DNA from: Lunatimonas salinarum
GTDB taxonomy: Bacteria; Bacteroidota; Bacteroidia; Cytophagales; Cyclobacteriaceae
Length of the DNA: 64,000 nt
Reading direction: 5' to 3'
Assembly (NCBI RefSeq): GCF_017811155.1
Contig: NZ_JACVCV010000006.1
Location: 186,001 to 250,000, forward strand
Shown in pieces: positions 726 through 48,854 of this stretch (the first letter of the stretch is position 1; every line of letters starts with the position of its first letter). The notes beneath the pieces were generated by a model, which did not search any database, had not been told where the DNA came from, and saw only the letters and a program-made list of their open reading frames with translations. The translations under genes were made by a program, and so were the position numbers.

Positions 726-859
726 GAAAAATCAATTATAGACACATGAAATCGAGCACGACGTACCCGTCACACACTGGGATGCCCCGATAGCTATCGG
801 GGCAACCATGCGAGATTCCATGTGTGACCTTTGAAAAATCAATTATAGACACATGAAAT
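726..859 (+). repeat. palindromic repeat element flanked by 27-bp direct repeats, copy A
   Basis: A perfect 27-bp direct repeat (726-752 and 833-859) brackets a core of about 80 bp. The repeat contains AATTATAGACACATGAAAT, and the right copy includes the ATG of pth. Inside are nested inverted repeats: GTCACACA (769-776) against TGTGTGAC (821-828), and the perfect 20-bp palindrome GCCCCGATAGCTATCGGGGC (784-803). A second copy lies at 38561-38675, also just upstream of a start codon. The blocks shared by both copies are the roughly 30-bp left end (AATTATAGACACATGAAATC then GAGCACGACG), TGCGAGATTCCAT, and TGACC. The left repeat also carries an ATG that opens a short frame starting MKSSTT. It resembles a REP/MITE-type intergenic element; I do not recognise its family. 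Confidence 0.75.
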
Positions 860-1413
860 ACCTGGTAGCAGGGCTGGGAAACATTGGGCCTCAGTATGAA
901 TTAACGCGACATAATGTGGGATTCCTCACCCTAGATAGGCTAGCAGATGTTAAGGGGATCGCCTGGGAGTCAAACAGACTCGCTTTTACGAGTTTTTACA
1001 AGCACAAAGGAAGGCAGATTCATTTAATAAAACCTACCACCTATATGAACCTGAGCGGTAAGGCGATCAGCTATTGGCTAAAGGAGCTTAAAATTGACCT
1101 AAGCAACCTGCTAGTCATTGTGGACGATATTGCGCTTCCATTTGGTAAGCTTCGGATGCGCCCCAAAGGATCTTCCGCAGGGCACAACGGACTGAAAAAC
1201 ATCGAAGAAATCCTCGGAACCCAGTCTTATGCGAGGCTTAAATTCGGCATTGGGGATGATTTCCCGAAGGGCAGGCAAGTAGATTATGTGCTGGGAAGGT
1301 TGCCCGAACCCGAACTGGCCGAGCTTCCTTTTATAATGGATCGGGCTATTCAGATTACAGAATCCTTTTGTACCGTGGGGATTCAGCAGACGATGAACCA
1401 ATTTAATCAATGA
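853..1413 (+). CDS. pth: peptidyl-tRNA hydrolase
   Basis: This cytoplasmic enzyme releases peptides from peptidyl-tRNAs that drop off the ribosome. The 186-residue length fits the family. Visible family features are the N-terminal GLGN (7-10), the catalytic His20 in TRHNVGF, the DDIALPFGKLR segment near residue 92 and GHNGLKNIEE near residue 112. The start codon at 853 lies inside the right-hand direct repeat of the upstream palindromic element, so its 5' untranslated region is either part of that element or was duplicated by it. It follows rplY as usual for the phylum, but with its own upstream region after the rplY terminator. Confidence 0.95.
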   Translation: MKYLVAGLGNIGPQYELTRHNVGFLTLDRLADVKGIAWESNRLAFTSFYKHKGRQIHLIKPTTYMNLSGKAISYWLKELKIDLSNLLVIVDDIALPFGKLRMRPKGSSAGHNGLKNIEEILGTQSYARLKFGIGDDFPKGRQVDYVLGRLPEPELAELPFIMDRAIQITESFCTVGIQQTMNQFNQ

Positions 1414-4094: not shown

Positions 4095-4577
4095 CTAAAT
4101 AAGCGGATCCACTTTTTCCAATGGCTTGGCGTATTTCACGACATCAATACCAAATTTTTTTAAAAACTCGAGTCCCTCATCCTGAGGTAGCCCTTTATAC
4201 TCTGCGTATGAATACAAAAAAACCACTTTTTCGATACCCATAGAATAAATAATCCGGGCGCAAGGTAGACAGGGTGCCAATGTCACAAAAAGAGTGGAGC
4301 CCTCTACGGTGGCTTTATTCTTAACAGCGTACAAAATGGCATTTTGTTCGGCGTGCAATGCAAGTGAGCAGCTTCCTTTACTATCCCTGCTACAGCCCTC
4401 CTCAGGAAACTCTTCGTCGCAGTTGTGGGTCCCGGAAGGTGGGCCGTTGTATCCGATAGAAATAATCCGGGTATCCTTTACCAGTACCGCACCCACGTGC
4501 TTTTTGATGCAGTGGGAGCGTTTAGCCAAATTCACGGCTAATTCCATAAAAATATCTTCAAAGTCTGGGCGTTTCAT
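4095..4577 (-). CDS. dCMP deaminase family protein (zinc cytidine/deoxycytidylate deaminase fold)
   Basis: A 160-residue deaminase. The zinc site is visible as HAEQNAIL (His plus catalytic Glu) and PCLPCARII (two Cys). A second Cys/His-rich stretch (HNCDEEFPEEGC) is typical of dCMP deaminases and ComEB-like proteins. The expected reaction is dCMP to dUMP, feeding thymidylate synthesis. It is convergent with murB, and the 414 bp upstream hold no long gene. Substrate specificity cannot be proved from sequence. Confidence 0.85.
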   Translation of the reverse strand: MKRPDFEDIFMELAVNLAKRSHCIKKHVGAVLVKDTRIISIGYNGPPSGTHNCDEEFPEEGCSRDSKGSCSLALHAEQNAILYAVKNKATVEGSTLFVTLAPCLPCARIIYSMGIEKVVFLYSYAEYKGLPQDEGLEFLKKFGIDVVKYAKPLEKVDPLI

Positions 4578-32843: not shown

Positions 32844-32894
32844 ACGCGTGATTGATAAAGAAAATGCCGGAAATTTGCTGGGTCATATAGTCTA

Positions 32895-32993
32895 ATTTAT
32901 CGTTCCCTTTCGGGCAGGTATTGGCACCTTTCCGCAAAAGGAAGGTTGCCAGAGGTTCAAAGAGCCTGTTCTCTCCCCTCTTCTGTATAAATC
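32895..32993 (-). ncRNA. SAM riboswitch (SAM-I / S-box) upstream of metZ
   Basis: On the minus strand the S-box core is readable: CTTTGAACCTCTGGCAACC, then AAGGTGCCAATACCTGCCC, then the tetraloop stem CCC-GAAA-GGG and AACGATAAA. The P1 stem closes with ATTTAT (32988-32993) pairing to ATAAAT (32895-32900). The spacing to metZ is about 130 bases. SAM binding would turn metZ off when methionine is plentiful. Confidence 0.88.
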
Positions 32994-38509: not shown

Positions 38510-38560
38510 GCTTGTTATTAAGCTATTTAATGGGTAATTTGGATGTTCCGCCCATTTAGG

Positions 38561-38675
38561 GACAAATTATAGACACATGAAATCGAGCACGACGCAAGCG
38601 ACACACGGAGGAACGATTGTAATACGTGCGAGATTCCATCTGACCGCTTAAAGACAAATTATAAACAGATGAAAA
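38561..38675 (+). repeat. palindromic repeat element with flanking direct repeats, copy B
   Basis: The left repeat (GACAAATTATAGACACATGA from 38561) and right repeat (GACAAATTATAAACAGATGA from 38653) differ at two positions and lie 92 bp apart; the right one contains the ATG of the next gene. The core shares with copy A (726-859) the block GAAATCGAGCACGACG, TGCGAGATTCCAT and TGACC, but lacks the 20-bp GC palindrome. The ATG in the left repeat opens a 24-codon frame beginning MKSSTTQATHGG. See the finding on this element. Confidence 0.7.
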
Positions 38676-39139
38676 TCAACATAAACGGAAAGGAACATAC
38701 CGTTAACGTGGCTGGAAATCCCATGCTATTGGAAGTTATTCGGGAGCAATTAAACCTCACAGGTACCAAATATGGATGTGGTGAAGCTGTTTGTGGTGCC
38801 TGTAAGGTTATGATTAATGGGAATTCTGTGCCAAGCTGCATTACGCCGGCTGTATCTGCACAGGGCAAAAATGTGGTAACCATTGAAGGATTAGCTTTTG
38901 ATGGTGAACTACATCCGGTGCAGCAGGCCTTTCTCGAGGTTGATCCTTTTCAGTGCGGGTACTGTGCGTCGGGAATGACGGTCACTGCCGCTGCATTTTT
39001 GGAGCGAAATCCATCACCAAGTAAAGAAGAAATTGTGGATGCCATGAACGGGAATATTTGCCGTTGCTGCACCTATCCTCAGCTCGTGGAGGCGATTTTT
39101 CAAGCGGGTAAGAAAATGGACTTAATCAAAAATCGATAA
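38669..39139 (+). CDS. molybdenum hydroxylase small subunit, (2Fe-2S)-binding
   Basis: A 156-residue iron-sulfur subunit of the xanthine oxidase family. The N-terminal plant-type ferredoxin domain contains GCGEAVCGACKVMI and a later Cys (VPSC), binding one [2Fe-2S]; the C-terminal helical domain contains QCGYCASGM and NICRCCTYPQ for the second. It passes electrons from the molybdenum site. The start codon is within the right repeat of the upstream element. It is followed, after one base, by the large subunit gene. Confidence 0.92.
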   Translation: MKININGKEHTVNVAGNPMLLEVIREQLNLTGTKYGCGEAVCGACKVMINGNSVPSCITPAVSAQGKNVVTIEGLAFDGELHPVQQAFLEVDPFQCGYCASGMTVTAAAFLERNPSPSKEEIVDAMNGNICRCCTYPQLVEAIFQAGKKMDLIKNR

Positions 39140-47498: not shown

Positions 47499-48854
47499 TT
47501 AGTTGGTCTTTTTTACTTTTGAGAAGTCGAAGGTTTCCAGAAACTTGGTCGTAAAGTTGCCCGCCTTGAATTCCTTGTCTTCCAATAGCGCCAAGTGGAA
47601 AGGAATGGTGGTTTTAATGCCATCAATTACAAACTCTTCCAACGCCCGTTTCATCCGAACAATTACTTCCTCTCGTGACTGACCGCTCACGATGAGTTTG
47701 GCGATCATGGAATCGTAATTTGGGGGGATGACGTAGCCGGCGTATACGTGGCTGTCTATTCGCACACCCCTCCCGCCAGGTAGATGGAGGTTGACGATTT
47801 TACCGGGGCTAGGTCGGAAGTTGTTGGCGGGGTCTTCTGCGTTGATCCGACATTCCATGGCGTATAATTTCGGATAGTAGTTTTTCCCACTTATCGGTTC
47901 ACCAGCAGCTACCTTTATCTGTTCTTTGATCAGGTCAAAGTCAGTGACTTCTTCTGTTATAGGGTGTTCGACCTGAATACGGGTATTCATTTCCATGAAG
48001 TAGAAATTGCGGTGCTTGTCTACCAAGAATTCAATGGTACCTGCACCCTCGTATGCAATCGCCTCCGCGCCTTTGATAGCTGCTTTACCCATCATGTCCC
48101 TTAGTTCGTCCGTAATAAAGGGGGAAGGGGTTTCTTCTACGAGTTTTTGGTGTCGGCGCTGTATGGAACAATCTCTTTCGGAGAGGTGGCAGGCACGTCC
48201 TTTAGAATCACCGATAACCTGTATTTCAATGTGCCGAGGTTCTTCTACGAATTTTTCCAGATAGAGTCCATCATTTCCAAAGGCTGCAGCGGACTCCTGC
48301 CTCGCATCATCCCACGCCTTTTTGAACTCACTTGCTTGCTTTACGATCCGCATGCCTCGTCCCCCTCCACCGGCTGTGGCCTTTAGGATGATTGGGTAGC
48401 CGATTTCCTCGGCCACCTGAAGGCCCTGCTCCAAGTCCTGCAACAAGCCATCAGATCCCGGTATAGTAGGAACTCCTGCTTCTGCCATGGTGGCTTTGGC
48501 AGTAGCCTTGTCTCCCATTTTGTTGATCATCTCGGGGCTTGCTCCGATGAACTTGATGTTATATTCTTCGCATATCCTCGAAAATTCCGCGTTTTCGGAT
48601 AAAAAACCATATCCCGGATGAATGGCATCTGCATTGGTAATCTCTGCCGCGGCAATGATGCGGGGAATATTCAGGTAAGAATCCCTGCTTGGCGCAGAAC
48701 CAATACAAACGGCTTCATCTGCAAAGCGGACGTGCAGACTGTCTTTGTCTGCGGTAGAGTAAACAGCCACTGTTTTGATCCCCATCTCTTTGCAGGTACG
48801 AATGATCCTGAGTGCTATTTCTCCTCTGTTGGCTACTAATATTTTTTTAAACAC
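47499..48854 (-). CDS. accC: acetyl-CoA carboxylase, biotin carboxylase subunit
   Basis: A 451-residue ATP-dependent biotin carboxylase, the first half-reaction of fatty-acid synthesis. The ATP-grasp domain carries [14 protein letters not shown], and the active-site region [22 protein letters not shown] is present. The start codon is GTG at 48854 ([16 protein letters not shown]). It is the last gene of fabH-efp-accB-accC. Confidence 0.96.

Follow-up and report, generated by a model that had tools for sequence, protein, structure and literature searches.

The palindromic repeat present in two copies in the window (the whole 64,000-nucleotide stretch of DNA analysed here) belongs to a large family of short units that enter host DNA at NTGA, most often ATGA, and that in the majority of cases open the gene behind them. 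We regard them as short, non-autonomous mobile elements of the single-strand (IS200/IS605-like) kind whose tie to start codons comes mainly from the ATGA target, a reading to which we give a probability of roughly 0.7. The original prediction of a repeat element lying in the sense of the gene holds in every case, and the observation is confirmed and much larger than the two copies first noted.

Direct reading bears out the two predicted copies with their shared blocks and flanking repeats. The 27-bp direct repeat of copy A lies at 726-752 and 833-859 and is 100% identical, and the corresponding pair of copy B lies at 38557-38583 and 38649-38675. Block D2, common to both copies, is 42 nt long and 90% identical, and an exact 20-mer together with its one-mismatch copy occurs three times in the window compared with none in 100 shuffles. 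A covariance model (R1), built from 75 units and run over the window, returns exactly two units. The features are as follows.

726-745, plus strand: leader module GAAAAATCAATTATAGACAC to the left of copy A, identical to 833-852.
746-749, plus strand: left ATGA, the host target tetranucleotide and original pth start site, from the pth loci of relatives and filled/empty pairs.
746-793, plus strand: upstream frame of 15 codons, MKSSTTYPSHTGMPR and a stop, opened by the left ATG (direct sequence reading).
750-856, plus strand: element unit copy A (AATCGAGC ... CACATGA), boundaries from filled/empty pairs; model R1 match 746-858, 84.3 bits, E 1.9e-15.
783-804, plus strand: nested 22-bp palindrome TGCCCCGATAGCTATCGGGGCA of copy A, an optional insert present in many other units and absent from copy B.
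807-821, plus strand: right arm of stem A (CATGCGAGATTCCAT), pairing with 746-760 (covariation and fold).
819-824, plus strand: guide CATGTG of copy A, pairing with CACATG at 850-855 (N-N' covariation).
833-852, plus strand: A-rich, element-borne pth leader, not found before pth in 28 element-free relatives.
850-856, plus strand: right end CACATGA with the pth start codon (853-855), the sole usable pth start.
853-1413, plus strand: pth, peptidyl-tRNA hydrolase (PF01195, E 1.1e-60).
38557-38576, plus strand: left leader remnant before copy B (direct reading and repeat comparison).
38577-38580, plus strand: left ATGA of copy B, target side (direct reading and left-flank comparison).
38577-38651, plus strand: upstream frame of copy B, 24 codons, with its stop 17 nt before the gene start.
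38581-38672, plus strand: element unit copy B; model R1 match 38577-38674, 111.8 bits, E 3e-21.
38637-38642, plus strand: guide CATCTG of copy B, pairing with CAGATG at 38666-38671 (covariation and fold).
38666-38672, plus strand: right end CAGATGA with the start codon of the 2Fe-2S subunit (38669).
38669-39139, plus strand: 2Fe-2S iron-sulfur subunit gene of a molybdenum hydroxylase (PF01799, PF00111).

As had been claimed, the right repeat of each copy carries the ATG of the next gene (pth at 853, the 2Fe-2S subunit at 38669), the left ATG begins an MKSSTT... frame that runs for 15 codons in copy A and 24 in copy B, and the GC palindrome seen at 783-804 is missing from copy B. The left ATG had been called a decoy; it does open a short upstream frame, but it marks the place where the gene originally started. 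Tandem arrays elsewhere suggest that the module at 726-745 is what remains of the right end of an adjacent unit, since deleted, that lay upstream; in a pth copy from the same genus (L245) a native-looking left flank directly abuts ATGAAATCGAG. No Rfam family scores above the gathering threshold at either copy. Elsewhere in the window a SAM riboswitch (RF00162, 73.7 bits) lies at 32894-32993 on the minus strand.

Units were sought with strict patterns and with the covariance model. A genome-wide search with the left block, which the original prediction had proposed, finds 33 copies at three or fewer mismatches and none with a reversed-pattern control, and pattern searches find 59 occurrences of the right hairpin arm and 123 of the leader plus ATGAAA module. 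Model R1 has 69 matches in the 1.12 Mb fetched besides the two in the window, and the family numbers at least 71 units in the 22% of the genome examined. The model also matches 62 of 118 genomes of the same GTDB family, often in multiple copies (per-genome counts from about 35 upward are given as at least that number), and 25 of 119 genomes sampled across class Bacteroidia outside that family. Carriers named by an exact-pattern scan are Algoriphagus, Lunatimonas, Lunatibacter, Cyclobacterium and Pleomorphovibrio. The plasmid and phage records searched hold no match to the element, and in a literature search, which is weak evidence of absence, such an element is not described and its motifs match unrelated papers only.

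A unit, measured from left ATG to right ATG, is mostly 88-92 bp long and extends up to about 130 bp with nested palindromes, and its layout in this family is ATGA/AATCGAGCAYGACG-nnnn-CGTCACACA..GGGATGATTAT..CATGCGAGATTCCATNTGACC-(A-rich)-AATTATARACANATGA/AA. Single units and head-to-tail arrays both occur, the latter with a common ATGAAA joint, and some units carry extra palindromes (CCCCGATAGCTATCGGGG, CCTGCCTGCCGGTAGGCAGG and CCCGATAAACCGGGACA) at fixed places. Nested palindromes (CCCCGATAGCTATCGGGG; CCTGCCTGCCGGTAGGCAGG; CCCGATAAACCGGGACAAG) are found in many units of this genome, for example at window 783-804, L037 and L073, and may be either separate small repeats or hairpin extensions. 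Sister subfamilies with other stems (ATGAAATGCCC..GGGCATTCCAT; ATGAAATACCC..GGGTATGCCAT) are present in Cyclobacteriaceae (L163, L191, L205, L097) and sit in mixed arrays with the main type, and some units of distant families measure only about 50-60 nt (L330, L335). A conserved upstream peptide was considered and rejected: the differences in the alignment are structural as well as non-synonymous, TAG can stand at codon 7, and the upstream frame of distant families is often only M-K-stop (ATGAAATAG).

Comparison of filled with empty sites shows a clean insertion, in which host NTGA is followed by the element (AATCGAGC...CANATGA) and then by host AA..., without target-site duplication. The joined flanks align to the empty site in L182/L151 (95% identity), in L085 of this genome with L303 of the same genus (88%), and in L050/L309, and L202/L034 is a further filled/empty pair. 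The most informative cases are those in which the host does not offer ATGA. In L161/L187 the empty site reads TTGAAA, with the left junction TTGAAATCG and the right end CAGATGAAA; in L063 (from this genome) and L202 the host reads AGGAAT/AGGAAA within transposase genes and the right ends read ATGAA; and in L045/L311 a TTG-start gene, the one in this genome, now starts with an ATG supplied by the element. It follows from these TTGA and AGGA exceptions that the left NTGA is host target, that the right ATGA is element-borne and that nothing is duplicated, and the earlier proposal that the element supplies the translation start is upheld by the element-borne ATG at the right end of each of them. 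The target is the motif and not the start codon, as insertions inside dead transposase genes show; one of these, in L202, interrupts a RAYT gene in mid-sequence, at an ATGAAA, and further insertions lie at intergenic ATGAAA sites.

Both stems are supported by strong compensatory change. The N of the guide CATNTG is Watson-Crick complementary to the N' of CANATG in 139 of 155 units (C-G 72, G-C 53, A-T 14), whereas the base before the left ATG is unrelated to N (19 of 74 matched). Stem C is paired in 96.7% of alignment cells, none of 500 shuffles reaches any of the measures, and RNAalifold recovers stems A and C unprompted; the ATG/CAT pairing at the left end is nearly invariant. Two right-end ATT variants carry the guide AAT (L187, L202) and neither is at a gene start, so that pairing there is not kept for translation. 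In other families of Bacteroidia the stem letters are wholly different yet complementary (AATAGCC/GGCGTATT, AACGAGCC/GGCGAGTT, AATGAGCC/GGCGAATT and AATAGCT/AGCTATT), with changes on both sides in all eight stem-A pairs and values that 0 of 500 shuffles reach, in an alignment that was fitted to the model and thus leans towards it.

Tabulation of the frame to the next start, also proposed originally, shows that an ORF of 60 aa or longer is started in frame by 101 of the 142 distinct last units, compared with 0/142 and 10/142 in the other two frames. The figure is 42 of 57 in this genome and 28 of 39 in distant genomes, where the other frames give 0/39 and 4/39. The original prediction had set a tie to start codons against placement at random positions; about 28% of last units do lie at non-start sites, with no gene start, but the target motif there is still the same. 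By a simple custom ORF caller, 50% of the ATGAAA sites outside coding interiors are start-like compared with 74% of the elements in this genome (42/57, P = 5e-4). Target preference together with loss of harmful insertions accounts for most of the tie, since genes here start with ATGAAA more often than with any other sequence and insertions within genes are usually lost, so that most surviving copies stand on start codons. A longer target, selection, or a quicker disappearance of copies between genes may lie behind the residual excess (74% versus 50%).

The pth locus offers the closest view of these events. The gene was found in 59 of 60 family genomes, is single-copy in this genome and nearly all relatives, and was read with its flanks at 30 loci. 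In the 28 loci without the element, the pth start reads ATGAA[AG] and immediately follows a native leader, mostly about 30 nt behind the terminator of the L25 gene, and these 28 also lack the AATTATAGACAC leader, in agreement with the earlier suggestion that the shared leader arrived with the element. Another genome of the genus (G002) has one unit at the same ATGAAAT of pth, immediately behind a leader that looks native. At copy A the reading frame of pth is closed upstream by a TGA at 832-834 and the protein has its GLGN motif from residue 7 onward, so the only usable pth start is the element-borne ATG, which we infer must work because pth is single-copy. We note that pth-like starts carry different units in three genomes, at L151 (Algoriphagus hitonicola), at L245 (G002) and at window 746-858, and the pth start site has probably been hit or rewritten more than once.

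The element leader has features that bear on translation. Relative to the new start, the upstream frame of 70 of 95 gene-starting units ends at -4 (the TGA of ATGA), +4 or +17 nt, distances at which translation could be coupled or re-initiated. Within the leader, A is invariant at -6, -8, -11 and -12, and for -6, -11 and -12 this base is reported or expected to promote initiation in Bacteroidetes. However, in 153 of 155 units position -3 is a C, which is a stem-C base, where the favoured base is A (PMC6847099), and good translation from the element ATG is not assured.

These features suggest a particular course of events. The element would be recognised as a folded single strand, with stem A joining the left end to TTCCAT and the guide CATNTG pairing with CANATG at the right cleavage site, as in IS200/IS605 transposons, and it inserts 3' of NTGA, strongly ATGA and usually followed by AA. 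Since the element ends in CANATGA, the sequence on its right again reads ATGA, giving host-ATGA, element and ATGA-host in succession. The old start codon then opens a short upstream frame, usually stopping within 20 nt of the new start, and translation of the gene would rely on the A-rich leader and the ATG that the element brings. IS200/IS605 transposons follow four rules, namely a left target tetranucleotide, a right-end look-alike, no duplication, and guide-to-cleavage-site pairing (PMC6006769), and it is on the sharing of these four that we propose single-strand transposition by an HUH-type enzyme acting in trans.

Comparison with known systems brings out both likenesses and departures. 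As in IS200/IS605 elements (TnpA Y1, HUH; e.g. IS608) and their derivatives, insertion is 3' of a short target without duplication, the element-borne terminal tetranucleotide resembles the target even at TTGA or AGGA sites, and there are subterminal stems with right-end guide-to-cleavage-site pairing (139/155; 0/500 shuffles). Unlike them, the element is only about 50-130 bp, has no transposase gene in cis or cognate ends beside one, has a target that coincides with gene start codons, and carries a usable start codon; unlike IS608 in particular, it lacks a canonical subterminal hairpin with a 5' tetranucleotide foot, and its hairpin layout differs. It is a short non-autonomous mobile repeat as MITEs are, but it makes no target duplication and its two ends do not form terminal inverted repeats. 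Small repeats tolerated in or next to genes are also seen in the Rickettsia palindromic elements (RPE) and the enterobacterial RU. RPEs lie in frame within reading frames, whereas the element described here sits exactly at the start codon and replaces it. RU elements can enter coding regions (PMC2759123).

Of the other readings to be weighed, the one originally put forward, in which a 27-bp target duplication encloses a palindromic element, is refuted by the empty sites and we give it next to no credence. It was suggested by the 27/27 identity in copy A, but the 27-bp sequence is absent from all 28 element-free pth relatives, the left flanks of 139 distinct first units mostly have only NTGAAA in common, TTGA and AGGA hosts still receive a right-end ATGA where the junctions share only NTGA, and the right end does not copy the host target as a MITE/DDE-type duplication would. 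The same right-end module closes every unit in tandem arrays, and the 27-bp repeats are the element's own right-end modules. We consider it very improbable that the units are instead a cis-acting regulatory RNA, an upstream frame with a start-hiding hairpin that was duplicated and kept for translation control. Sense orientation before genes, a covarying stem that includes the start codon, and the frequent endings of upstream frames close to the gene start are all consistent with such a role; against it stand the 89 unrelated protein clusters downstream among 101 proteins, the roughly 28% of copies without a gene, intact stems inside dead transposase genes and with non-start ATT ends, the bare M-K-stop of many distant upstream frames, the native leaders that form the left flanks of first units, and the lack of an Rfam match above cut-off. 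Insertion directed to translation starts themselves, for example because initiation regions expose DNA or form R-loops, or because the target is a longer start-like sequence and not ATGAAA alone, is unlikely although less so; it would explain why 74% of elements are at starts when 50% is expected from tolerated ATGAAA sites, and the A-rich flanks of first units fit it, but copies also occur in RAYT coding parts and at intergenic ATGAAA, and the excess is less than two-fold and could be explained by loss or decay of intergenic copies.

A slightly better, though still doubtful, case can be made for mobilisation of a REP/REPIN-type repeat by a RAYT (Y1) transposase that is resident in the genome and belongs to Quentin subclass 1.2 or 2.6. 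Genes of these subclasses are present, subclass 2.6 of Bacteroidetes is reported with atypical, dispersed secondary structures (PMC6006769), several insertions are within RAYT genes, and the element is, like REP/REPIN, short, structured, multicopy, extragenic, and single or tandem. However, the aligned units lack the GTAG/GGAG foot of a 20-40 nt hairpin, are directional and tied to ATGA targets, and do not flank the Y1 genes examined. Among about 60 Y1_Tnp loci in about 40 genomes there is no cognate element copy; model R1 matches lie beside only two, neither looks cognate and the proximity is by chance, and the Y1 gene flanks that were read carry other, different palindromes. Resident Y1 proteins with the motif Y---Q--HH resemble subclass 1.2, which is generally without known or typical ends (PMC6006769), and are mobiliser candidates only. 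Subclass-1.2-type Y1 genes (L031, L276, L285, L286, L287) are each surrounded by their own palindrome arrays. A long autonomous version was also considered, but none of 259 left blocks belongs to a long element with a gene inside, and the 36 without a close right end are chance matches in other bacteria, contig ends or decayed copies. HEARO RNA was found in 0 of 7 genomes, with control genomes likewise silent.

Elements lie repeatedly inside RAYT/Y1 genes or their remnants, above the small share of the genome that these occupy: in L202 on the minus strand at 4340 and 3906, in L063 at 7171 and 8235 (contig C89 of this genome), and at G168:C42:47682-47936, with the element at 47857-47952. This excess could reflect either neutral dead sequence or a functional link. 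A RAYT coding stretch (L034, L035), CAATTTTGGACACATGAAA / CAATTTTGGACACACGAAA, resembles the right end CAATTATAGACACATGAAA with about three differences in 19, which could be chance or a hint of origin.

We return to the preferred reading, that of a known kind of entity, probably single-strand mobile DNA in short non-autonomous form, in an unusual start-codon niche. Whereas a mobile element usually spares its host by settling in intergenic DNA, a tRNA gene or the region behind a terminator, this one takes the place of the start codon itself, that of pth included. A broader proposition, which we advance tentatively and at a little under even odds, is that these are class-wide single-strand transposon parasites specialised on start codons as a safe harbour, in which the guide CATNTG would set the ATGA end by pairing, and the leader, start codon and nearby upstream-frame stops would keep the genes that are hit, even essential ones, translated. 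The family may represent a small guide-directed system of single-strand transposition, and across Bacteroidia genomes its insertions have altered the 5' leaders of genes along with their start codons, with consequences for the annotation of start sites and for the evolution of expression (TTG to ATG).
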